The translations under genes and the position numbers were made by a program. Of a DNA stretch of 23,695 nt, positions 3,652 through 22,454 are shown piece after piece; position 1 is the first letter of the stretch, and each line of letters opens with the position of its first letter. The notes under the pieces were generated by a model. That model was not told the origin of the DNA. It did no database searches and was given only the letters and a program-made list of their open reading frames with translations. This DNA comes from a virus, in IMG/VR virus record IMGVR_UViG_3300027704_000160, positions 1-23,695 of that record. One strand, given 5' to 3'.

Positions 3652-4554
3652 TTACTTTATAGGTTTACTTAAACCCTTTAACACTTGAGTGAACTCTTCT
3701 ATCTTAATGCTAGATAGCCTTATCTTAGCTTTTCTAGCTTCAGCAAATCTTTCTTTCTTAAATCGCTGTACTATATATTCAGGTATATTAGATCTTGAGG
3801 CCAACACACCGTACGCTATCCATTTATATACAGCTTCTTCTGCAAACTTATGTACAACCATTTCGTTGTCTGTACCTAAACCATCGCTTATGTAATGCAG
3901 TACGATAGTCGAACCTGCTAGAGCAGATCCAAAGTGTATCATACCTTTGTTAGCATCGATATAGAAAGTGCCATTATCTTGAGCGTGTTGTGGATCAAGA
4001 CCATATCTTCTACCATAATGATCTAAATAATTTTCATTAGTCTCATAGTCATTTCTAATTTCATTAGGGGTGTGTGACTTGTAACCTGTCCACGTGTCTG
4101 AATCTGTTTGGTATTGAAGATCGTTTGACACCGATGTTGATCCATCAATAGTTTGATTAAAATCATAACTACCATCAGCTGTTTGGTTTATAGCAAATGG
4201 GTTTGAAGTCTTACCAGTAGGATATAAAACCCTCTCAATACCGTCAGTACCACTCGTGGTCATCTTACTATAGTTTACATAGTCTTGAGGCAATATCATT
4301 TGAAGCGTGTTAGGTACTTCAATCTCTTGGGCTTTTATGGATCTAAATATGTCATAGCTAAATTCCTGTATAGCTCTCATTGCGTGGAACTGTATATCAG
4401 TTCTATTTACTTTACTAATCAACTTGCTCTCACCAACGTATGCTACCATAAAACCATTTATGATACTATCCAATGAAGTGAACTGATAATCCCCGTAGTT
4501 ACCAGAATTACCAGAGCTGTAATATGTATTTTGATTTTGTGATAATAAACCCAT
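3652..4554 (-). CDS. Neck/tail adaptor-type structural protein (300 aa)
   Basis: This 300-residue protein starts 2 bases after the previous stop and ends 5 bases before the giant tail gene. Residues 1-25 are rich in Asn, Gln, Ser, Gly and Tyr, suggesting a flexible N-terminal arm. Residues about 45-85 form a predicted helical segment (DIQFHAMRAIQEFSYDIFRS), followed by a beta-rich middle and a basic helical C terminus (about 255-300). No enzymatic motif is visible. From memory, similar proteins sit between head and tail genes in uncultured marine phages and crAss-like phages, where they are annotated as structural or neck proteins. I infer a head-tail connector ring or tail tubular protein. 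There is no signal peptide or membrane segment. Confidence in a virion role is moderate; the specific ring is not assignable from sequence alone. Confidence 0.6.
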   Translation of the reverse strand: MGLLSQNQNTYYSSGNSGNYGDYQFTSLDSIINGFMVAYVGESKLISKVNRTDIQFHAMRAIQEFSYDIFRSIKAQEIEVPNTLQMILPQDYVNYSKMTTSGTDGIERVLYPTGKTSNPFAINQTADGSYDFNQTIDGSTSVSNDLQYQTDSDTWTGYKSHTPNEIRNDYETNENYLDHYGRRYGLDPQHAQDNGTFYIDANKGMIHFGSALAGSTIVLHYISDGLGTDNEMVVHKFAEEAVYKWIAYGVLASRSNIPEYIVQRFKKERFAEARKAKIRLSSIKIEEFTQVLKGLSKPIK

Positions 4555-4556
4555 AG

Positions 4557-5255
4557 TTAGTTATTCTTTTCAGCTTTAGTGTTTGCTTTATCTCTCATAG
4601 CAGTTTCAGTAAGAGCTCTATCTTTTAAAGCTATACCTGACAGCTCTAATATCCTCATTACTAAGTTAGTTTCTTCTGACTCGTGTAAATCGAAGTCTGT
4701 AGAATTAGCACCGTTATATAGCGCTTTACCTTGTATTACAACGTAACCCCAAGAAGGTGTATTAGGTTTTTTGATATACTCTACGTTTACCACTAAACCT
4801 ACTGTAGGATATATTTTTATTTTATTAACTCCCTTTCTAACATATACAGGTCTATCTGCCACAGCCTTAGTTAAAGGGTTTCTCTCCATTTGTCTAAGTA
4901 ACCTAGAATCAACTTCATCTACTTCTATGTTACTTACGAACACAGAGCTTAGTATATAAGCATTATCAGTTAAAGTGTATTCGTTATTTGTATGAGACTC
5001 ATTGATGAGTTCATCTACACGATGTACTGATATTCTTTCGTTTAATAATTCTATCTCATCCCCTATATCTGTACTATTCTTAGGCTTCAACTGAGCCATC
5101 TTAAGATCATGGAAGTAATTCTCAAATACCTCAAGCTGAGCTTGATCTGCGAACAGATTAAACTCCTGTGGTGTTATATAACCTCTCTGGTCCTTGTTGG
5201 CTAAAGCCTGGACTTTCTGGTATACTCTATCTATATCTACTGTATTGTTAGCCAT
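4557..5255 (-). CDS. Head-tail adaptor-like protein (232 aa)
   Basis: This 232-residue protein begins a new transcript segment downstream of a strong terminator (5311-5333). Residues 7-60 contain IDRVYQKVQALANKDQRGYI followed by TPQEFNLFADQAQ, a helical opening I recall from proteins encoded near the neck genes of marine Bacteroidota phages. The middle is beta-rich and the C terminus (about 195-232) is helical and charged (LVMRILELSGIALKDRALTE). No catalytic motif is seen. It is followed after 2 bases by the 300-residue neck protein and then by the giant tail protein, so the three probably act together in the connector and tail. A T7 gp11-like or P22 gp4-like adaptor is the most likely role, inferred mainly from position. 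Confidence 0.6.
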   Translation of the reverse strand: MANNTVDIDRVYQKVQALANKDQRGYITPQEFNLFADQAQLEVFENYFHDLKMAQLKPKNSTDIGDEIELLNERISVHRVDELINESHTNNEYTLTDNAYILSSVFVSNIEVDEVDSRLLRQMERNPLTKAVADRPVYVRKGVNKIKIYPTVGLVVNVEYIKKPNTPSWGYVVIQGKALYNGANSTDFDLHESEETNLVMRILELSGIALKDRALTETAMRDKANTKAEKNN

Positions 5256-5310: not shown

Positions 5311-5333
5311 AAAAAGCCACAATTAAGTGGCTT
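5311..5333 (-). terminator. Intrinsic terminator after the thioredoxin-like gene
   Basis: On the minus strand AAGCCAC, loop TTAATT, GTGGCTT form a perfect 7-bp stem that runs into a T tract (complement of the A run at 5311-5315). It sits about 10 bases past the stop of the thioredoxin-like gene. The plus strand lacks a T tract, so the orientation is minus. Confidence 0.85.
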
Positions 5334-5342
5334 AGTTACTAT

Positions 5343-5711
5343 TTACTGAAATTTACTTAGTGTTATATTGTCTATAACTGTCTGAACCTGTTTCTTAGTT
5401 GCCTGTAATTGCATCATAATGTTGGGGTCAAACCTAGACTGCTCTACCCCGTTATCAAATATTATAACTGTAGGTATAGAGGTTACTTTATATTTCTTCT
5501 GAATACTAGCACCTTTGACAATACACAACCTATACGGTTCGCAGTCTTTCAATGATTTTAGAAATTCAACTTGATTACCTTGATTCCACTCAGCCCAGAA
5601 CTCTACTACAGTTATACCTTTAGCTGTCCTAGAATTAAACGTATCTTTAGATATAAATTCTTGCGCATTGATTAAAGCAGGTAACATAAATACTAGTAAC
5701 AACTTATTCAT
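5343..5711 (-). CDS. Exported thioredoxin-fold protein lacking the CxxC active site
   Basis: The 122-residue product has a clear signal peptide (MNKLLLVFMLPALINA, probable cut before Gln17), so it should reach the periplasm of a Gram-negative host. The mature part follows the thioredoxin plan: a strand TVVEFWAEW at 34-42 and the cis-proline loop TSIPTVIIFDNG at 77-88. Where thioredoxins carry WCGPC this protein has WNQGNQ (42-47), so both redox cysteines are gone. Two other cysteines, C57 and C63, remain in DCEPYRLC. It overlaps the upstream one-helix membrane protein by 8 bases, and a strong terminator follows. I infer a non-redox binding or scaffold role at the cell envelope, or a disulfide-dependent role using C57/C63. 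The thioredoxin fold is fairly sure; function is unknown. Confidence 0.75.
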   Translation of the reverse strand: MNKLLLVFMLPALINAQEFISKDTFNSRTAKGITVVEFWAEWNQGNQVEFLKSLKDCEPYRLCIVKGASIQKKYKVTSIPTVIIFDNGVEQSRFDPNIMMQLQATKKQVQTVIDNITLSKFQ

Positions 5712-5982
5712 ATAACTTTTCTTTAATTGCTTTCAAATCGTCTTTAATTTCTTTCACATCCTCTTGAGTGGACATTATAGTTTGGCGGATTAACTTATCT
5801 TTCATATCAAACTCCATTCTAGTTATCTCTGGGTCCATAGGTTCTGGTAAGTTCCTGGCTTCAGCTATATCATTCTGAAGTGTAAACCACATCCCAACTA
5901 GAGTAAATATTAAAGCAGCTATACCAGCTAATGTTTTTATACTTACATTTAATGTAGTATCTTCATTTAACTCTTTACTCAT
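5704..5982 (-). CDS. Small one-helix membrane protein with coiled coil (92 aa)
   Basis: The product has a charged N terminus (1-11), a hydrophobic segment at about 15-35 (IKTLAGIAALIFTLVGMWFT) and a long polar, heptad-like helix at about 55-92 (RMEFDMKDKLIR, then EDVKEIKDDLKAIKEKLYE). This is the layout of an inner-membrane protein with a coiled-coil outer part, seen in small phage membrane proteins including inner-membrane spanins and some holin-associated proteins. It begins 1 base after the outer-membrane-like protein and overlaps the exported thioredoxin-like protein by 8 bases, so the three are translated together. A lysis role (i-spanin-like) or an envelope-spanning complex with its neighbours are both possible; neither is proved. 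Confidence 0.65.
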   Translation of the reverse strand: MSKELNEDTTLNVSIKTLAGIAALIFTLVGMWFTLQNDIAEARNLPEPMDPEITRMEFDMKDKLIRQTIMSTQEDVKEIKDDLKAIKEKLYE

Positions 5983-5983
5983 A

Positions 5984-7048
5984 TTAAAATATTAAATAGT
6001 TTATACCAGTTTTTAATTGATAAGAAGGTCTGTCCCAGAACTTTAAATGCCTAGCCTCTACGAATATACTAAAATGTCTATTAAAATTAACACCGAATAT
6101 CAATCCTGCATCCCACTCTGTTTGACTACCGTTTCTATTAAAAGAAAAATCCGTAAGTCCTTTGTGCGCTGGGTATAGAGAACCCCAAGTGTGTAACCAG
6201 CAATTTTCATCGTAATAATAATAATCTAATCCTATAACTGCTGACACTTCCTGCTGTAGACCTATTAAGTCTAACTGCTCTTTATTGTATCTATTAAGAA
6301 CCGTAGGAAAGTAATACTTGTAAAACTCATCATCGCCTGCGCATATCCACTCAGATTCACCAGCCTCAATGTCTATGTATATCCACTCTCCAGATTGAGA
6401 TGTACTGAGATAATAATATGAATTAGCTAAAGCTTTCCAATCTTCATTACCGTTCGTTCTAGTCCACTCTTCTATAGGTGAGTAACCATATACTGGATGT
6501 GATCGATGTGCTACACCTGCTGTAACATCAAATGACCCAAAGCTTTTACGTAGTCTAGCTTCTCCTAGTGTGTACTTTAAGTTTATTAACCCATCGTTAA
6601 CGTAAGCAGCTTTAGCCGTGAAGTTACTAGAGATATACCTTAGTTTATATTCTTGTTGAGTTACTTCGGTACCTCTGTTTCTAACAAAAGAATACTGAAA
6701 CAAATACTCTAGTCCAGGAGCATTAGATACTGTAGAGTAATCACTGATCTCATGTTCTGAACCGTCATAAAATAAACCTTGCTTTACTTGGTAATTAAAC
6801 CTAGCTATTTTTCTAAGTCCTATAGTTATGTTTACATTAGGTTCACTGTACTGAGTCATCTCTATTATAGTACCGTTTACATAATCATCTTGATGCCCAG
6901 GGTCATATAAACCTTGAACTCTATAACCTACAGGTTCTGCAGCAGGCGTAGTAGTAGAGAAGCTAGCGTAAAAAGTAGCAAACCTAAATACTTGAGCATC
7001 GGCGCTATAGCATAGCAATAATAGTAGTGTAAAAAATATTCTTTTCAT
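5984..7048 (-). CDS. Outer-membrane beta-barrel-like exported protein (354 aa)
   Basis: I start the gene at the ATG at 7048, not at the in-frame ATG at 7072, because the protein then begins with a classical signal peptide (MKRIFFTLLLLLCYSADA, cut before Gln19) and no longer overlaps the upstream gene. The mature part has no further hydrophobic helix and consists of alternating, Tyr/Phe/Trp-rich segments typical of a transmembrane beta barrel. It ends in a terminal Phe (QLKTGINYLIF), as outer-membrane proteins usually do. The ADA-Q cut site fits Bacteroidota. I infer an outer-membrane protein made during infection, possibly altering receptor access or the envelope before lysis; a virion role is less likely given the signal peptide. 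It is followed after 1 base by a one-helix membrane protein and then by an exported thioredoxin-like protein. Confidence 0.65.
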   Translation of the reverse strand: MKRIFFTLLLLLCYSADAQVFRFATFYASFSTTTPAAEPVGYRVQGLYDPGHQDDYVNGTIIEMTQYSEPNVNITIGLRKIARFNYQVKQGLFYDGSEHEISDYSTVSNAPGLEYLFQYSFVRNRGTEVTQQEYKLRYISSNFTAKAAYVNDGLINLKYTLGEARLRKSFGSFDVTAGVAHRSHPVYGYSPIEEWTRTNGNEDWKALANSYYYLSTSQSGEWIYIDIEAGESEWICAGDDEFYKYYFPTVLNRYNKEQLDLIGLQQEVSAVIGLDYYYYDENCWLHTWGSLYPAHKGLTDFSFNRNGSQTEWDAGLIFGVNFNRHFSIFVEARHLKFWDRPSYQLKTGINYLIF

Positions 7049-7059
7049 ATAACGATTTA

Positions 7060-7308
7060 TTAGCATTTCCATCTACGTCTAGCTGCTTTGCCTCTCTCAC
7101 TTGTCCAACTTTTGGATCTAGCACAGAAGGATTTTCTACGACCAGCAGCTTTACTACCTGGTTTTACTTTACCAGTAACAGCTGTCTTGAGCTTACTACC
7201 AGGATTCTTCTTCTTGTAAGCGGCTACACCTTTTTTAGTCATACCCGCACCTTCTTTAATAGTAAGGAAATTTCTTCCCTTACCTTTAGTTGTCTTACGT
7301 ATTGCCAT
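7060..7308 (-). CDS. Small very basic protein, DUF6321-like (82 aa)
   Basis: Most of the protein is Lys, Arg, Gly, Ala and Ser. The C-terminal half carries the pattern GSKAAGRRKSFCARSKSW and ends RRRWKC. From memory this KSFCARxxx...WxC pattern belongs to a short phage family annotated DUF6321; I could not check this. Its strong positive charge suggests nucleic-acid binding, for example in the virion or at the ribosome, but no function is known to me. It lies 14 bases after the 118-residue gene and 11 bases before the outer-membrane-like gene (start at 7048), in the same orientation. The leader before its ATG is A-rich without a Shine-Dalgarno sequence. Confidence 0.7.
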   Translation of the reverse strand: MAIRKTTKGKGRNFLTIKEGAGMTKKGVAAYKKKNPGSKLKTAVTGKVKPGSKAAGRRKSFCARSKSWTSERGKAARRRWKC

Positions 7309-7322
7309 AACTTTTAGTGTTG

Positions 7323-7679
7323 CTAAATATTATCCGATTGATTGTCTCTAATTAATTCCATCGCTTCAGCGCTAGTCATAAGACAGTTGCTAGGATAGCT
7401 TAAGCCCCTACCTAAGTTAAGTAAAGCCGAAACCTCACCACCTAACCAAGAGCAATCTAACTCAACTACATAGTACTTGCTATCTTCTATAGCAACCTCT
7501 ATAACGTTTCCAAATTTAATTCTGTTATCAGAAGCTACCTCTTCGAATGTAGTCGCTAAGACCTCCGTTAAGTTACCTTCTTCATTGTATATCTTACGAG
7601 AATACTTCCCTTCGAGTTCTCTAGGAATATTACCTAGATAAGCTGCCTCATTAAGGCAGATAAATATATTTCCTTTCAT
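7323..7679 (-). CDS. Unknown protein (118 aa)
   Basis: I do not recognise this protein. It is soluble in character, acidic overall, and alternates beta segments (GNVIEVAIEDSKYYVVELDC at about 57-76) with short helices, ending in an Asn/Asp-rich tail. Four cysteines (C8, C76, C99 and none paired in a CxxC) do not form an obvious metal site. It starts 2 bases after the stop of the LamG adhesin, so it is translated with it. Position suggests a fibre chaperone or a small virion protein, but this is only inference from the neighbour. Confidence 0.55.
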   Translation of the reverse strand: MKGNIFICLNEAAYLGNIPRELEGKYSRKIYNEEGNLTEVLATTFEEVASDNRIKFGNVIEVAIEDSKYYVVELDCSWLGGEVSALLNLGRGLSYPSNCLMTSAEAMELIRDNQSDNI

Positions 7680-7681
7680 AA

Positions 7682-9937
7682 TTAATTTGAATGTGCAGAT
7701 AATCCTGCGTTATAATTGTTGGTTATTTCCTCCTGAGTTAGTGCTTCATTATACACTACAACCTCGTCAATAATTTCGTCCAACCCCTCTGTAAAATCTT
7801 GACTAACTCCTATAAGTAAAGGTTTTATATTTGTAGGTATAGCCCCAGTATGTGATGTACTTCCATCAGCGTTTCCATTCAAATAGAATTGAATAGTAGA
7901 ACCATCATAAACTACAGATAAATAATTCCATTGATTAATAGGCGGATATGTATTAGAGTTGAATTGCGTACTACCTATAAATAACCTAGATTTAACTGAA
8001 GCGTTACCCACATACCAAGTGTAAGCATTACCTTTATTTACTAAAGAAGAATACCCTGACTCTCTTTGGTATACCCAAGCTGATAAAGTTAATTCAGTTG
8101 TTATATCTAAAGTAGTATCATCAACCACTTCAGCATAACCCGAACCATCTAAGTTGAAAGCATACTCTCTTAGTTTTAATGGGTTACCTAGAACATCATA
8201 CCCTACGTTGTTAGGGTTTTGAACTAGTGTAGCATTTATTGCTGATGAACCTGCTGTTCCGATATATGAGCCTACTGTCGAGGATTGCTCTAGTTGCCAT
8301 CCTACCACTTTAAAACCTTTTGAAGATTGAGTTGTGTATTTAATAATACCATTATTTGTAGACGTTGAAGTAACTGTCTTTGTTTTAGAAACCCTCCATA
8401 TATTACCACTAACATTGGTTTTCGTATTAGTTCCTCCTGCAACAGCATTACCTAAAACAAGTCCAAAATCACCACTAGAAGCAGTATTGGTAATATCAGG
8501 TTCACTATTATCATCCATAATAACAAAAGCTGATAAAGTATATTCTAAACCTGAAGTAACAGAACTTCCATACCTAAACCTAAGTGATGAATTATCGCCA
8601 AATTCAGTAGCATTTTTAAATCCAATATAATTCCAAGAATAAGATGCGTAAGTTGTATTTTGTTCTGCAGATTCATCAGATGTAGGCTCACTGTTTAAAT
8701 ACAAATTACTCCCCTTACTCCAATCCATCATACCCAACTGAGGGATAGTAGGTTGTTGGTCATCGTATGTAGCACCACTAATAGTCCCGTCATTGCCCTC
8801 GCCTGAACTATCGTAAGCAATCGAACCTGCACCCTCACTCAAAGCCCAATAGCCTTTTAGATTAGATAGAGCAACAGTCGAATTAGGGTTATCCGTTACG
8901 AGGTGGTTAGGGTTGTTGTAGTCGAAGGTATAATCACTTTGCTCTAAATCACCTTGCCAAATTTGAATATTCGATAAAGTACCATTAAAAAAGGTTTGAG
9001 CTTTCCCTATCCTATTGAAATCTAATACTGAAGAAGGGTTGAATGTGATTGAAGATAAAAAAACACCATTTAGATAACCTTTACAAGTTTGATTAGTTAC
9101 ATCATACTCGTAAGCTATTCTATTGTAAGAACCATCTGATACTACATCTGAACTAAATGTTTGTTTTATCCAACCACCGTTATGGTAAGACGCAGAAAGT
9201 TGACCTCCATCTATACCAAACACAACAAAATAGTTATCTCTTGAAAATATGGGGTTTGCTCCCGACACCGAAGTCGTTGTGTCTGTAGACTTAACTGTAG
9301 CCATAAAAGTCCAAACACCACTTTGAGGGTTGATTCCATTACCTATATCAACATAATCATTAACCCCATCAAAGCTAAGAGCCTTCCCTGTAAATAACTT
9401 ACCTACATTTGAATTACCCGATTTGTCGGGAACGAATTGGGCTACTTCTTTTACTGTTACGCTATTTACTTCTGCTATCTTACTTGATAAGCCTAGTACT
9501 GTAACCGCAAAAGTTGAACTAGATGCTATTCTATAGAAAGTACTCTCGCCAACTTCTAAACTATAGTCAAGATATGAACCATCAGCGATCAATCTAACCC
9601 CTGCAGCAGAAGTGGACTCCACATTTATAGTAATTTTATATTTTCTACCTGCTTTTACTGTAAATACATTAGAAACCAAAGATGAACTTACTCCTGATTG
9701 TGTTCCATCTAATGTAGCACTACTGCCACTAATAGACCAACCATCTCCTGTAGTCCAATATGTTCCTGTTATGTTCTCTGCCTGTGTACCTGTCAAAGCG
9801 AAATCCACATCGGAAATAAATCCGACATCTTCTATCATAGTCGTTGTAAAACCAAGCCACGTTTTAAGTCCACTAGTTATTACAGAAATAATACTAGCAA
9901 GTCCTGACAAGACAATTGAATTACCTAAACCTAACAT
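7682..9937 (-). CDS. Two-LamG-domain virion adhesin / fibre (751 aa)
   Basis: The protein has four beta-rich modules after a hydrophobic N-terminal helix (about 8-30). Residues 42-168 look like a carbohydrate-binding jelly roll. Residues 185-345 are a LamG/concanavalin-like domain opening with ALSFDGVNDYVDIGNG. Residues 405-565 form a second jelly roll ending GWQLEQSSTVGSYIGTAG, a pattern common in phage head and tail fibres. Residues 590-745 are a second LamG domain (LTLSAWVYQ, then WNYLSVVYDGSTIQFYLNG). LamG domains bind glycans, so I infer that this virion protein attaches to host polysaccharide or to particles. It starts 1 base after the 88-residue virion protein, close to the capsid gene, so it could be a head fibre rather than a tail fibre. 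The N-terminal helix may be its anchor. Confidence 0.75.
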   Translation of the reverse strand: MLGLGNSIVLSGLASIISVITSGLKTWLGFTTTMIEDVGFISDVDFALTGTQAENITGTYWTTGDGWSISGSSATLDGTQSGVSSSLVSNVFTVKAGRKYKITINVESTSAAGVRLIADGSYLDYSLEVGESTFYRIASSSTFAVTVLGLSSKIAEVNSVTVKEVAQFVPDKSGNSNVGKLFTGKALSFDGVNDYVDIGNGINPQSGVWTFMATVKSTDTTTSVSGANPIFSRDNYFVVFGIDGGQLSASYHNGGWIKQTFSSDVVSDGSYNRIAYEYDVTNQTCKGYLNGVFLSSITFNPSSVLDFNRIGKAQTFFNGTLSNIQIWQGDLEQSDYTFDYNNPNHLVTDNPNSTVALSNLKGYWALSEGAGSIAYDSSGEGNDGTISGATYDDQQPTIPQLGMMDWSKGSNLYLNSEPTSDESAEQNTTYASYSWNYIGFKNATEFGDNSSLRFRYGSSVTSGLEYTLSAFVIMDDNSEPDITNTASSGDFGLVLGNAVAGGTNTKTNVSGNIWRVSKTKTVTSTSTNNGIIKYTTQSSKGFKVVGWQLEQSSTVGSYIGTAGSSAINATLVQNPNNVGYDVLGNPLKLREYAFNLDGSGYAEVVDDTTLDITTELTLSAWVYQRESGYSSLVNKGNAYTWYVGNASVKSRLFIGSTQFNSNTYPPINQWNYLSVVYDGSTIQFYLNGNADGSTSHTGAIPTNIKPLLIGVSQDFTEGLDEIIDEVVVYNEALTQEEITNNYNAGLSAHSN

Positions 9938-9938
9938 A

Positions 9939-10205
9939 CTAAGCTATATAAGCTATAACAGTACCACCAGCTATAGTAACAGTCGTGAACAGACCATATA
10001 TTGTAATACCAGCGGGTATTGTAATTGAAGTCAAACTATCTCCATTTACTGAAGCAACCGTAAGTGTAGCAGTTGATAAACAGGTGATGGCATTATAATG
10101 CGTACCTAGATTAGCAGTTTGACTACCTGTTAAGTGATCGAAACCTTTTTGTCCGAATGTTGCTAACTGGTGATTACCAGGGTTTGCTAAATTTGAATAA
10201 CTCAT
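9939..10205 (-). CDS. Small beta-rich virion protein (88 aa)
   Basis: After a polar N terminus (MSYSNLANPGNHQLATFGQK), residues 40-88 are a run of short hydrophobic beta segments rich in Thr, Ile, Val and Gly (TLTVASVNGDSLTSITIPAG, then ITIYGLFTTVTIAGG). This is the kind of small protein often encoded beside phage capsid genes as a decoration or fibre-base component. I do not recognise a named family. It is the first gene after the terminator at 10312-10341 and is followed after 1 base by the LamG adhesin, so it may form the base to which that fibre attaches. That link is inference from order only. Confidence 0.55.
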   Translation of the reverse strand: MSYSNLANPGNHQLATFGQKGFDHLTGSQTANLGTHYNAITCLSTATLTVASVNGDSLTSITIPAGITIYGLFTTVTIAGGTVIAYIA

Positions 10206-10311: not shown

Positions 10312-10341
10312 AAAAATAGCCACCCGAATTGGATGGCTATT
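10312..10341 (-). terminator. Intrinsic terminator after the 278-aa gene
   Basis: On the minus strand AATAGCCATCC, loop AATTC, GGGTGGCTATT gives an 11-bp stem with one G-T wobble, followed directly by TTT. It lies about 20 bases past the stop of the 278-residue gene. Confidence 0.88.
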
Positions 10342-18497: not shown

Positions 18498-18766
18498 TTA
18501 GATCTTCCTTCTGCGAAACCTTTAAAACTTGCTTTATTTTCTGAAACTTTCTTATCACCTAACATTTCTTCTTCTTCTTGTATTCTATTAAGAATTTCGA
18601 ACGCATCGAATATAGCGAGTTTCTTCGTTGCTGCAGCGTTTTTAAGCCTATCAGCTGTGATGTCATCACCACTATCAACAATAGCTTCTTTAGCAACCTT
18701 GATAAGTTCCTCAACAGCTTTATGTCCAGCTTGGATTATACTCTTCTTCGTTTCCTGTATATTCAT
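18494..18766 (-). CDS. Small terminase subunit candidate (90 aa)
   Basis: The protein is short, helical and charged, with GDDITADRLKNAAATKKLAI at about 33-52 and an acidic stretch EEEEML near residue 64-69. It ends in a basic tail. It overlaps the large terminase start by 4 bases, the usual place of the small, DNA-recognising terminase subunit. I recall similar proteins with the 'DDITADRLKNAAATKKLAIFDAF' pattern ahead of terL in marine phages, although their role is not proved. There is no clear helix-turn-helix. Its start lies 47 bases inside the preceding gene; there is no suitable later Met, so the overlap is probably real. Confidence 0.55.
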   Translation of the reverse strand: MNIQETKKSIIQAGHKAVEELIKVAKEAIVDSGDDITADRLKNAAATKKLAIFDAFEILNRIQEEEEMLGDKKVSENKASFKGFAEGRSK

Positions 18767-19298
18767 ACTCTACATTTATAAACCTATCCATAACTCTATA
18801 CAATCTCTCTCCGTCTATAACAAACTCAAACTCATCTCCAGGAGAGAAACCCACTAATGCTTCTTTATCAAAAGCCTTAGAGTATTTAACCACACCTATT
18901 AAAGGTATCTCAGTGTCAGCAACAAACTTATCTTTACATTTTAGCGGTTTTATGAACGTATAACCAGGAACTACTTTCCTGTCATTGGGCTTACCATACA
19001 TAAAGAATTGATCAGGCTGTAGTAGGAATTCATCATCATTTAAAAATCCTCTACCGTTTTTCTCAACACCCTTAACGTTGTGCCATCTTCTGAAGACATT
19101 GTGATGCACTATTAACTCATCTCCGACACTCACGTTTAATGGGTTGTGCATTGGCGTAGAAACAACTACGGCTCTACGGTTAATGTACGAGTGATTAAAT
19201 ATTTCTGTATTTAATATCAAACTCTTGTCACCAACCTTCACCGAGTTGTTATACCTATCACCCACTGGTTTTATAATAAAGTCTATTACTGGTCTCAT
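18720..19298 (-). CDS. Tandem GroES-like co-chaperonin-type protein (192 aa)
   Basis: The protein reads as two GroES-type barrels in a row. Repeat 1 (about 4-103): VIDFIIKPVGDR, then a loop KVGDKSLILNTEI at 21-33 that matches the GroES mobile loop with a hydrophobic triplet (LIL), then RRAVVVSTPM, NVSVGDELIVHHN at 55-67 and EFLLQPDQFFMYG at 90-102. GroES has the same order: mobile loop, GEVVAVG, VKVGDIVIF and a closing strand pair. Repeat 2 (about 112-178): YTFIKPL, IGVVKYSK, FSPGDEFEFVIDG and LYRVMDRFINVEYE. The second repeat has a less clear loop (KDKFVADTEIPL). Its stop lies inside the small-terminase gene, and its start shares 1 base with the previous stop. I infer a second co-chaperonin, or a GroES-derived assembly factor, for the phage chaperonin encoded upstream. 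The fold assignment is by eye. Confidence 0.6.
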   Translation of the reverse strand: MRPVIDFIIKPVGDRYNNSVKVGDKSLILNTEIFNHSYINRRAVVVSTPMHNPLNVSVGDELIVHHNVFRRWHNVKGVEKNGRGFLNDDEFLLQPDQFFMYGKPNDRKVVPGYTFIKPLKCKDKFVADTEIPLIGVVKYSKAFDKEALVGFSPGDEFEFVIDGERLYRVMDRFINVEYEYTGNEEEYNPSWT

Positions 19299-19794: not shown

Positions 19795-20208
19795 TTAATT
19801 GTTATTGTTTCCTTTAGACGAACCACCGAAGAAGAAGTCTACTATTGTATTTACTTTTGCACTCATAGCACCGAATGCTGAACTTATGAAACCTATTTCG
19901 TAATCACTAAGCTCTAGTGTATTCATCACAAAATACTTAAACATAACATATGTTATACCGAAGTAAGCCACAGTAAATAGTATAGCTAAGATCTTTTGAA
20001 TTATTGCATCATCTTGATATAAGCTTCTAGCACCTTGCCGATCCTCTACTTCCTTAGCAAAAGCTTCTTTCTCTGCCTCAAGAAGTATCTTCTTTAATTC
20101 AAGTTTAGCTTCATCTCTTTCTTTATCCGTAGTTATAACCTTGTCGAGTATACCCTCTGCGTTCTCAACAATCTTACCGAATAATCCACCTATTAATTTT
20201 CCTACCAT
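19795..20208 (-). CDS. Holin-like membrane protein, GTA/3TM holin type (137 aa)
   Basis: A charged, helical N-terminal half (residues 1-65, DKERDEAKLELKKILLEAEK) is followed by a strong transmembrane segment at about 70-94 (IIQKILAILFTVAYFGITYV) and a second hydrophobic stretch at 103-128. The end reads VDFFFGGSSKGNNNN; a C-terminal 'FFGGSS' after the last hydrophobic segment is typical of the holin family first described with gene transfer agents. Holins make the inner-membrane lesion that lets the lysis enzyme out. No endolysin is visible in the window, so its partner would be elsewhere. It starts 2 bases after the winged-helix-like gene. The membrane location is sure; the holin role is likely by family resemblance. 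Confidence 0.7.
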   Translation of the reverse strand: MVGKLIGGLFGKIVENAEGILDKVITTDKERDEAKLELKKILLEAEKEAFAKEVEDRQGARSLYQDDAIIQKILAILFTVAYFGITYVMFKYFVMNTLELSDYEIGFISSAFGAMSAKVNTIVDFFFGGSSKGNNNN

Positions 20209-20210
20209 AA

Positions 20211-20651
20211 TTATCTGTTTGGGTCTTTTATCATGTCATCTATAACTTTGTTCATAACCTTATCTGTGTAAGACTTATTGTTATAGTATTTATTACTAGA
20301 TGTCATTGGAATATCTTCTTCTCCTAGTAATATTTTATAAACTCTATTTATAAGTACGTTACACTTGTGAGATGTTTTAAATATAGAGTACTTTATAGTT
20401 GTTCTATTACGATGTCTCCACACATCTATCCAGCCTTGGTCTCTAAGTCTATCCCATCTTTTTTTATCCCAAGAGTAAGCGTATATACCGTTTATAAATT
20501 CATCTCTTGTAAACCTATTTAAACAGCTTAAGTATATGAGTAGCTCGAGATCAGCATCTTTTATATCATTCTGATTGCATGCCCACTTTCGAACTACCCT
20601 ATAATACTTAAGTAGATTTATTTCTTTTAAATCCTCAGCCGTTATTCTCAT
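20211..20651 (-). CDS. Probable winged-helix protein (146 aa)
   Basis: Residues 10-80 have a helix-helix-helix-wing order: INLLKYYRVVRKWACNQNDI, DADLELLIYLSCLNRFTRDE, then KRWDRLRDQGWIDVWRHRNR with an aromatic turn, and a wing-like TTIKYSIF. This order resembles MarR-like winged-helix domains that bind DNA. The C-terminal third is basic and Asn/Lys-rich. I recall related unnamed proteins in marine phages. It overlaps the GroES stop by 4 bases (ATGA), so its translation is coupled to the chaperonin genes. It may be a late-gene regulator or a packaging helper; both are inference. Confidence 0.55.
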   Translation of the reverse strand: MRITAEDLKEINLLKYYRVVRKWACNQNDIKDADLELLIYLSCLNRFTRDEFINGIYAYSWDKKRWDRLRDQGWIDVWRHRNRTTIKYSIFKTSHKCNVLINRVYKILLGEEDIPMTSSNKYYNNKSYTDKVMNKVIDDMIKDPNR

Positions 20652-20902
20652 TCAACTAATACGATGTCTCTGAGTTTTATAACTCTATACATAACCTCGT
20701 TGTACCTAACATCATGCCCTGAATGCTTGTCATACATTATTGTCATACCGGTACTTACAATAGAGGCTAGGTCTCCAACTGAAATTACTTCAGCTTTCTT
20801 GTATCTATTATCTGAGTCAGTGTTGTCAGTGAGTAATAACCCACCGACTTTCTTTTCTTCTTTTATAGTCTTTATAACTACATAATCATTAATTGCTTTC
20901 AT
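20648..20902 (-). CDS. groES: GroES-type co-chaperonin (84 aa)
   Basis: Residues 4-12 (INDYVVIKT) match the first GroES strand, and residues 14-31 form the mobile loop, with VGGLLLTDN at 19-27. The loop's Gly-Gly plus hydrophobic triplet (LLL; IVL in E. coli) is the part that grips GroEL. AEVISVGD at 37-44, MTIMYDKHSGHDVRYNEVMY at 53-72 and the closing DIVLVE at 79-84 complete the fold. At 84 residues it is shorter than the usual 95-100. It starts inside the end of the GroEL-type gene (14-base overlap) and so is translationally coupled to it, in the reverse of the common groES-groEL order. It should cap the phage chaperonin, the host chaperonin, or both. Confidence 0.85.
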   Translation of the reverse strand: MKAINDYVVIKTIKEEKKVGGLLLTDNTDSDNRYKKAEVISVGDLASIVSTGMTIMYDKHSGHDVRYNEVMYRVIKLRDIVLVE

Positions 20903-22454
20903 TTAATCTTACGTTTGAGATTACACAATCAGCGGACATAACAGTTAAAGCTACACTCACTGCATTTTTCAGCGCCGATTTTGTAACCAAAACCGGGTCT
21001 ATTATTCCAGCCTTAATCATATCGACTGTCTCACCTGTTACGACATTAATACCAAGTCCTTCACCCACTGAAGTCTGAGGATCAAGACCCGCATTAGCCA
21101 GTATAGTGATGAAAGGTGCTCTCAATGCTTCTAAGAGTACGTCAGCACCCACGTAAGTGGAAGAAATTTTTTCAGAAACATCAAGGAGTGCTACGCCCCC
21201 TCCAGAAACTATACCCTCTTGTAGAGCTGCTTTAGTAGCATATATAGCATCTTCTACTCTATCTTTCTTTTCTTTAAGCTCTACCTTGGAATTAGCTCCA
21301 ACCTTTATAATACCAACGCTTCCTGATAGAGTAGCTAGTCTTTGCTCTAACTTCTTCTTAATAAAATTATTCTGCTCTGTAGAGATTTGCTTATCTAACT
21401 CCTCTATGCGAGCCTCAACCTCTGAGGTAACTTCCTCTAGGGTTATAACAGTAGATTTACTATCTGTAACAGCGAACTCAGCTTCACCCAAATGATCTGG
21501 AGTGATTAAATCTAAGTCATCACCTAATTCTTCATTGATTACTGTAGAGCCTGTAAGTATTGCTAAGTCTTCCATAGCATCTTTACGTGTAGGACCAAAG
21601 CCAGGTGGGTCGATTATGTTAACCTTAATGTTACCCTTAACCTTATTCATCAGTAAAGCAGATTTAACTTGCTGTGATACCTGAGCTACTATAAGTAATG
21701 AACGATTACTCTTTATGACATGTTCTAATACGGACTGAATCTTACGTACGTTAGGGATCTCTGAGGACACTGTGAGGATATATGGGCTGTCTAATTCTGC
21801 TAAGTGCTTCTCCGTGTTTGTAATGAAGTGTGGGGATGTGATACCACAATCTATCTGAGCTCCATCGACTACGTCAACGTAAGTATCTTCACAATCGCTC
21901 TCTTCCATTAATACTACTCCATGTTTTCCCACTCTTTCATAAGCATCAGCTATTATAGCTCCAAGCTCGTTGTCGTTGTTACAAGAAATTGCAGCAACAG
22001 ATTTTAACATGTCTCCTTTTACTTCTACAGACATTTCGTCTAGCATAGATAAGACATCATCTAAGCAAGTATTAACTCCATCTTTTATTTCTCTGATTGG
22101 TAATCCTGCAGCGACGGCAAGATCTATAGATTTGATAAGCGCTTCGGCTAGTACAGTTGCAGTGGTCGTACCATCACCTGCTTCTTTTACTGTATTACGA
22201 GCTGCTTCTTTAATGAGTGTAGCACCCATATTCTCGACCGGATCAAATAAGACTACGCTTTCTGCAACGGTTACTCCGTCTTTTGTTATGATCGGTCTGC
22301 CTCGTCCATCTTCATATATCACGCATTTTCCTGATGCGCCCAGTGTGGACTTAACGGCTAGTGCTAACTTATTGACTCCGGCGATGATTCTGTTTTTAGC
22401 TTCACCACCGAAGTCTAAGTTCTTCACCAATTCACTTGGTAAGTTGTATTCCAT
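20889..22454 (-). CDS. groEL: GroEL-type chaperonin (521 aa)
   Basis: The full three-domain chaperonin plan is present. ITKDGVTVAESV (56-67), the nucleotide motif AGDGTTTATVLAEAL (92-106, with D94 equal to GroEL D87) and RVEDAIYATKAALQEGIVSG (399-418, with D402 equal to the ATPase residue D398) are intact, so ATP hydrolysis should work. The apical domain is recognisable (about 195-375) but differs from E. coli at substrate- and GroES-binding positions in my hand alignment (Y199 to I205, Y203 to H209, L234 to Q240). The C terminus stops at VRLNESN without the Gly-Gly-Met tail that fills the cavity floor in GroEL, giving 521 instead of 548 residues. It would form rings that fold proteins in the cytoplasm. 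It is a phage gene rather than a host remnant because it overlaps the next phage gene and lies in one operon with packaging genes. Confidence 0.92.
   Translation of the reverse strand: MEYNLPSELVKNLDFGGEAKNRIIAGVNKLALAVKSTLGASGKCVIYEDGRGRPIITKDGVTVAESVVLFDPVENMGATLIKEAARNTVKEAGDGTTTATVLAEALIKSIDLAVAAGLPIREIKDGVNTCLDDVLSMLDEMSVEVKGDMLKSVAAISCNNDNELGAIIADAYERVGKHGVVLMEESDCEDTYVDVVDGAQIDCGITSPHFITNTEKHLAELDSPYILTVSSEIPNVRKIQSVLEHVIKSNRSLLIVAQVSQQVKSALLMNKVKGNIKVNIIDPPGFGPTRKDAMEDLAILTGSTVINEELGDDLDLITPDHLGEAEFAVTDSKSTVITLEEVTSEVEARIEELDKQISTEQNNFIKKKLEQRLATLSGSVGIIKVGANSKVELKEKKDRVEDAIYATKAALQEGIVSGGGVALLDVSEKISSTYVGADVLLEALRAPFITILANAGLDPQTSVGEGLGINVVTGETVDMIKAGIIDPVLVTKSALKNAVSVALTVMSADCVISNVRLNESN

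Follow-up and report, generated by a model that had tools for sequence, protein, structure and literature searches.

In SprB/SprF-type adhesin pairs and PorP/SprF barrel pairs, the gene for an outer-membrane barrel lies beside that for a surface protein exported by the type IX secretion system (T9SS), and lambda Lom is an 8-stranded barrel of the Ail/OmpX type. Among phage systems described in the cited literature, T5 Llp is a single small lipoprotein of superinfection exclusion (PMC9586334), and phage-encoded T9SS cargo has been reported for the Cryophage (PMC7468147) and for crAss-type cluster 2 (PMC6949934). One survey lists no spanin for 91 of 677 phages (PMC6139136), and the account available for isolated flavobacterial phages names spanins for few of them (PMC8776804). 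How Bacteroidota phages break or alter the outer membrane has been little described.

The locus considered here comprises three adjacent viral genes, BARREL, TMCC and TRX. No paper on this trio was found in a literature search outside which most subscription journals lay, and, as the original prediction had it, no named system with these three members turned up. The trio probably acts on the host envelope late in infection.

Organization of the locus

The window, that is, the whole stretch of 23,695 bases that was analysed (IMG/VR record IMGVR_UViG_3300027704_000160), comes from a virus record classed linear and is therefore perhaps a fragment. By its terminase, portal, capsid and neck-type proteins it lies near podoviruses of marine flavobacteria. 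Its 232-residue neck-type protein matched 87 phage records, all at less than 60% identity: 68 under Flavobacterium, 15 under Cellulophaga, 2 under Tenacibaculum, 1 under Maribacter and 1 unnamed. The features that concern us are:

3652-4554, minus strand: neck-type virion structural protein, 300 aa (phrog_13977, E 1.4e-41)
4557-5255, minus strand: neck-type virion structural protein, 232 aa (phrog_14543, E 1.4e-40)
5314-5333, minus strand: terminator-like hairpin and U-run behind TRX, from a consensus scan
5343-5711, minus strand: TRX, 122 aa; thioredoxin fold with a signal-like N-terminus, without CxxC
5704-5982, minus strand: TMCC, 92 aa; predicted single-helix inner-membrane protein with a C-terminal coil
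5984-7048, minus strand: BARREL, 354 aa from the ATG at 7048; modelled outer-membrane beta-barrel
7060-7308, minus strand: DUF6321 small basic protein (PF19846, 42.3 bits, cut-off 28.5)
7323-7679, minus strand: p118, hypothetical protein in the same presumed unit as the trio
7682-9937, minus strand: LamG-containing fibre or spike protein, 751 aa (PF13385, 98.2 bits; NF048003 spike/fibre domain, 48.1 bits)
9939-10205, minus strand: p88, first gene of the presumed unit
10315-10341, minus strand: terminator-like hairpin upstream of the presumed unit, from the consensus scan
19795-20208, minus strand: holin-like protein, far from the trio (phrog_3427 holin, E 1.6e-4)

The coordinates, the minus strand and the hairpin bear out the proposal of three genes in a row, with one-base spacing or overlap and a common terminator. 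A single base separates the BARREL stop from the TMCC start, TMCC and TRX overlap by 8 bases, and the hairpin at 5333-5314 folds as RNA with -12.7 kcal/mol (z -3.1). The longest reading of BARREL begins at 7072, giving 362 aa and a 13-base overlap with the DUF6321 gene. Terminator-like sites numbered 8 in the consensus scan against 2.0 expected. Since the next such site upstream on the minus strand is that at 10341-10315, p88, the LamG fibre gene, p118, DUF6321, BARREL, TMCC and TRX look like one unit, an assignment that depends on the scan.

Elsewhere in the window, GroEL-like (521 aa) and GroES-like (84 aa) genes lie on the minus strand at 20648-22454 and 18720-19298, and a second co-chaperonin-like protein matches phrog_13932 (E 1.1e-08); searches of the window for RNA families and tRNAs found none. 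Small basic proteins of the DUF6321 type recur around the trio as neighbour cluster 1 (55 of 132 loci); their match is to the C-terminal end of larger phage proteins (phrog_10346).

The trio is absent from six cultured relatives. Its slot is empty in elemoE, phi38:1, ctfjg026 and Gundel_1, and holds other small genes in phi19:3 and Panino. None of six proteins matched PADLOC-DB 2.0.0, a set of known anti-phage defence proteins, at E up to 0.1. The placement of the trio between fibre and neck genes, part of the original prediction, holds for the window but not for L001 and L002, its nearest relatives, with barrel identities of 88% and 84% to the window's; there the trio is found upstream of the lysis genes and the terminase. 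The window's arrangement could be read as that of virion components, the three proteins being carried in the particle and helping it through the envelope at infection. The trio is not beside neck genes in most relatives, however, and the signal-like N-termini of the barrel and TRX argue against virion assembly in the cytoplasm, so that this explanation is very improbable.

Distribution of the three genes

Alignment searches found the barrel encoded in at least 538 viral-contig stretches and TMCC in at least 573, of which 80 each were kept for analysis. Single-sequence searches with the barrel and TRX gave 3 and 24 loci, and the three genes follow one another in the same order in all 27; the exceptions within this set are a barrel split over two ORFs (L019), one extra gene between TMCC and TRX (L016, L017) and extra genes between barrel and TMCC (L025). 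After removal of duplicates, all three genes occur in 67 of 75 barrel-found loci. Six of the other eight end at or just after the module and one (L096) has about 1 kb left, while L108 clearly departs from the rule, its barrel lacking both TMCC and TRX although 6 kb remain. The 76 TMCC-found loci include 61 with all three genes, 12 with TMCC and TRX but no detected barrel (some of them cut by contig ends), two with BARREL and TMCC only and one with TMCC only, these last three ending no more than 45 bases from TMCC. Of 132 distinct TRX loci, 131 have TMCC close by; the barrel is found in 118 if eight genes are allowed and in 120 if the whole locus is counted. The trio's own genes served as queries for these loci, which are a directed rather than an unbiased sample.

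In whole records, the window included, the TMCC profile matched 44 of 44 trio records and the barrel profile 15 of 17; neither matched any of the six cultured relatives. Two whole contigs (G029, G043) gave no barrel match at all. A TMCC-like gene stands alone, without barrel or TRX, at L028:7543-7878, on a contig that has the window's local arrangement of capsid, fibre, p118, DUF6321 and neck genes.

The trio is a real conserved module, as had been proposed, with one predicted member for each envelope layer, and it is shared by hundreds of uncultured viruses. Independent occurrence of the genes in relatives would have spoken against this: they mostly occur together, but not uniformly. In light of the loci that have TMCC and TRX without barrel, of L108 and of L028, TMCC and TRX are best regarded as a tight pair and the barrel as a frequent partner.

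Three barrel and two TMCC single-protein queries found no convincing homologue among 50,697 phage records, and a TRX query found only weak matches there, mostly to thioredoxins. That a module present in at least 500 viral-contig stretches goes unfound by five barrel and TMCC queries in such a collection marks a large blind spot. A viral structure library does contain one clear, unnamed relative of the barrel (A0A516LKJ4, 26% identity, E 8.3e-23), and the barrel family is thus not wholly absent from deposited viral proteins.

Predicted properties of the proteins

For BARREL, structure prediction gives an outer-membrane barrel of roughly 12 strands. In the AlphaFold2 model, which was built from 20 sequences and is of moderate confidence (pLDDT 68.7, pTM 0.60), the long strands number about 12 and residues 186-262 form a helical insert. 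Its best 50 Foldseek matches in the PDB are all outer-membrane proteins (E 5.4e-08), and VIA-align superposes it on the EstA autotransporter (Z 16.2, rmsd 3.9, 213 aligned residues) and on KdgM (Z 15.8, rmsd 2.6, 163 aligned), with no T9SS barrel among the best 50 matches listed. The protein has a signal-like N-terminus and a C-terminal Phe, which is the last residue in 91 of 111 complete relatives; here and below, assignments of signal peptides and topology come from inspection by eye and from scripted hydropathy and charge instead of a dedicated predictor. By sequence, BARREL fell into no Pfam or NCBIfam family above cut-off and no PHROGs family at E up to 1, and its profile found nothing meaningful among PDB sequences. 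Membership of the PorP/SprF family was considered and set aside, there being no match to a Pfam or NCBIfam model of that family at E up to 1 with a single-sequence query, which could miss a distant relation. Derivation from a host barrel is likewise not supported: among 397 genomes of the family to which one Flavobacteriaceae MAG belongs, BARREL matched that MAG's own contig only. TMCC matched the same contig and, weakly (E 4.9e-4), a site inside a 631-residue frame.

In 13 loci (L086, L087, L089, L090, L091, L102, L134, L139, L145, L153, L178, L179, L181) the barrel itself carries a lipobox-like N-terminus, by which some barrels may be lipid-anchored as well.

TMCC has one hydrophobic stretch followed by a coil. 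It is well conserved (64% mean column identity over 20 relatives) and matches no Pfam family at E up to 1. Across 130 relatives, Lys and Arg are more numerous before than after the helix in 52, fewer in 5 and equal in 73. Sequence, alignment and charge bias agree with an inner-membrane protein having an N-terminal helix and a predicted periplasmic coil, as in the inner-membrane subunit of two-component spanins, and TMCC resembles an i-spanin in predicted size and topology. The match to an Rz-like spanin family (phrog_7686) is not significant (E 0.044); a family of unknown function, phrog_1009, gives E 0.0018.

Several observations touch on TMCC from the side. A second TMCC-like protein of 108-114 aa, which has the N-terminus and helix in common with TMCC, is encoded just upstream of the M15 endolysin in about 10 loci (for example, L005:2140-2466, L119:7686-8024 and L185:7689-8033), and may be an i-spanin or an antiholin. 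The TMCC match is reported with one internal TGA in G019, G020 and G024, the records of L087, L089 and L099. In a more distant group TMCC is often preceded by a very large protein (cluster 17, about 2,300 aa where complete), seen as a 5' gene at 3-3161 of L004 and upstream of TMCC in L121, L125, L147 and L167.

TRX exceeds the cut-off for the Pfam Thioredoxin family (PF00085, 24.2 bits against 23.5), and its family profile matches PDB thioredoxins (best E 1.6e-11). The cis-Pro motif is kept in 128 of 128 complete relatives, and CxxC, usually replaced by N-x-x-N, is present in none of them, on which ground a redox-active thioredoxin was rejected. The window's TRX has no lipobox; the lipobox pattern does fit one TRX elsewhere (L128). 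The original prediction of an outer-membrane-barrel-like protein, a one-helix coiled-coil inner-membrane protein and a periplasmic thioredoxin-fold protein is thus upheld, the first by the model and its structural matches, the second, still as a prediction, by hydrophobic stretch and coil, and the third by Pfam and PDB profile matches to the fold, with a signal-like N-terminus pointing to the periplasm.

Linkage to lysis genes

In many relatives the trio is followed by lysis genes, namely an M15-type endolysin (phrog_894, E 1.5e-37; PF08291) and a three-helix holin (PF11351, phrog_3427); within eight genes, across 132 loci, the endolysin is found in 48 and the holin in 65. In five loci that lack barrel and passenger, the secreted protein considered below (L119, L146, L150, L182 and L185, with L146 cut just upstream), TMCC and TRX lie directly before or next to endolysin and holin. 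A search of 44 records found a PF08291 endolysin in 22, located within 7.5 kb of TMCC in 21 and within 2 kb in 13, whereas 20,000 random placements brought at most 14 of the 22 within 7.5 kb.

The trio also diverges with the endolysin rather than with the terminase. Over 41 common loci, the pairwise identities of TRX, BARREL and TMCC correlate with those of the endolysin at 0.85, 0.77 and 0.62, respectively, as against 0.16-0.32 with the terminase over 20 loci. Physical linkage alone could produce part of this co-divergence. A lipobox scan within 5 kb of TRX in 132 loci returned 17 candidates, of which 13 are the barrel itself, one is TRX and three are others, so that there is no regular o-spanin partner.

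An outer-membrane step of lysis is suggested by three things together: the assignment of one predicted protein to each envelope layer, descent in common with the endolysin and the want of a lipoprotein partner. The reading that we favour, with a probability of about 0.38, is that the trio is a late-acting phage envelope module for this step, replacing spanins of the Rz/Rz1 type. The localization, timing, lytic role and contact between BARREL, TMCC and TRX that we infer would be as follows. TMCC would be anchored in the inner membrane with its coil reaching into the periplasm, where TRX, whose thioredoxin fold is redox-dead, would be its near-obligate partner; and BARREL would be located in the outer membrane. 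Travelling with the M15 endolysin, the module would perform the outer-membrane step in place of the spanins. Many relatives also have, in this region, a variable secreted protein whose tail is of T9SS or T9SS-like type.

Several findings weigh against the spanin-substitute reading. The predicted periplasmic part of TMCC is short, at about 55 residues. The trio correlates poorly with the holin (0.14-0.27 over 31 loci), though this gene too is close by. The 23.7-kb window has no M15 endolysin, its holin-like gene lies 12 kb from the trio, and PF08291 is unmatched in 22 of the 44 records, in which another endolysin may be present. Finally, lysis does not explain the passengers.

Secreted passengers and their T9SS or T9SS-like tails

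Directly downstream of TRX in 38 loci is the gene for a short secreted protein, X180, and other groups of loci have a long secreted protein (cluster 5) or one that by eye is LDLa-like (cluster 15) close by. Within 7.5 kb, 94 of 132 TRX loci have a protein whose tail is T9SS or T9SS-like, a count that is partly circular because these neighbours themselves supplied the tail models; 88 of 96 tailed passengers have a signal-like N-terminus. The T9SS type A sorting domain (TIGR04183) scored above its curated cut-off in seven of eight long passengers tested. In whole records it was found in six of 44, once each and never farther than about 3.5 kb from TMCC or BARREL, and in none of the six cultured controls.

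Profile comparison shows a short tail common to three otherwise different passenger families, the X180 tail matching that of cluster 15 with probability 95.1 and that of the degenerate cluster 5 with 85.6, against at most 11.1 for 39 control C-termini. Five of five X180 proteins had no match to the T9SS type A sorting domain, and the X180 tail as a true T9SS tail is unsupported, profile comparison with the T9SS domain giving probabilities of 11.3 and 13.4. The X180 model (pLDDT 74.7) has no significant PDB match (best Foldseek E 0.069), its best Z, a non-significant 5.5, being to a carbohydrate-binding module.

Flanks of 2.5 kb to either side are available in 91 loci; of these, 73 have both barrel and passenger, 13 the barrel alone, one the passenger alone and four neither (Fisher p 0.004, with relatives that are not independent); 89 of the 91 have either a passenger or an M15/holin gene. 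All 26 measured loci with X180 of type I have a barrel loop of 41 residues, and all four with type II one of 49-52 residues. A specific X180-barrel partnership was also sought in their co-divergence and discarded: the correlation of 0.84, against 0.43 and 0.45 over 33 loci, loses its excess within type I (0.76 against 0.83 and 0.78), and was therefore driven by four loci. Cluster 15 and cluster 5 passengers gave no clear co-divergence excess with the barrel.

These passengers suggest display at the cell surface, instead of or in addition to lysis, and surface display or receptor masking is a close rival of the spanin-substitute reading, if a tentative and, taken singly, somewhat improbable one. 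The barrel would anchor a variable phage protein, or help to export it via host type IX secretion, with TMCC and TRX as inner-membrane and periplasmic helpers, and the result would be to exclude superinfection or to keep progeny off their own debris. The T9SS-type tails, the confinement of TIGR04183 to the neighbourhood of the module in whole records, the barrel-passenger association, the matching of X180 types to loop lengths and the position of the trio after the fibre gene in the window all favour such a role. Yet no passenger is found in the window, whose barrel loop has 49 residues, nor in 13 of 17 measured loci with a loop of 44-52 residues, and neither the profile of the X180 tail nor barrel-X180 co-divergence within type I lends support. 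T9SS export, moreover, is not known to need a dedicated periplasmic thioredoxin, which counts against display. Of the functions offered by the original prediction, lysis and receptor masking or exclusion thus gain support from neighbouring genes, whereas DNA entry gains none.

The near-obligate pairing of TMCC and TRX and the looser attachment of the barrel allow for two neighbouring functions, a lysis-linked TMCC-TRX pair and a separate surface system of BARREL and passenger that is only transported with it. Where more than 120 bases separate the barrel from TMCC (31 scorable loci), TMCC and TRX remain neighbours in 29 and the barrel lies beside the passenger in 14; the pair is also found without barrel. 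But BARREL co-diverges with TRX (0.81 over 41 loci), and close to the window's lineage it is common for a barrel to have no passenger; such a division is quite unlikely. A single trans-envelope machine of Bacteroidota viruses, in which the TMCC coil and redox-dead TRX would drive or gate BARREL, both placing a T9SS-tailed protein on the surface and opening the outer membrane at lysis, is an unlikely combination too, though a shade less so.

Relation to known systems

As in the SprB/SprF and PorP/SprF pairs, a barrel gene in trio loci can lie beside the gene for a presumed T9SS-exported surface protein, but the window's barrel, as a single-sequence query, matches no PorP/SprF model, and no counterpart to TMCC or TRX is known in those pairs. 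With T5 Llp, as far as its source describes it (PMC9586334), and with lambda Lom, the trio has in common that small phage envelope genes lie next to receptor-binding or fibre genes; it differs from both in a roughly 12-stranded barrel with two partners. The cargo of the Cryophage (PMC7468147) and crAss-type cluster 2 (PMC6949934) resembles the passengers in carrying T9SS type A sorting domains and in varying between relatives. It differs in that the available text of these reports describes it without a module of barrel, coil and thioredoxin, and the window itself is without cargo.

The trio resembles the two-component spanins of the lambda Rz/Rz1 type in its predicted small inner-membrane protein with a periplasmic coil, in the overlapping downstream gene and, in its relatives, in having endolysin and holin as frequent neighbours. 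Unlike the spanins, it has as downstream partner a thioredoxin fold without lipobox, and as outer-membrane member an integral barrel in place of a small lipoprotein. Lacking both the lipoprotein of spanins and the CxxC of thioredoxin enzymes, it is placed with neither, and offers a concrete candidate for how the outer-membrane step of lysis, or else surface display directed by the phage via type IX secretion, is carried out.
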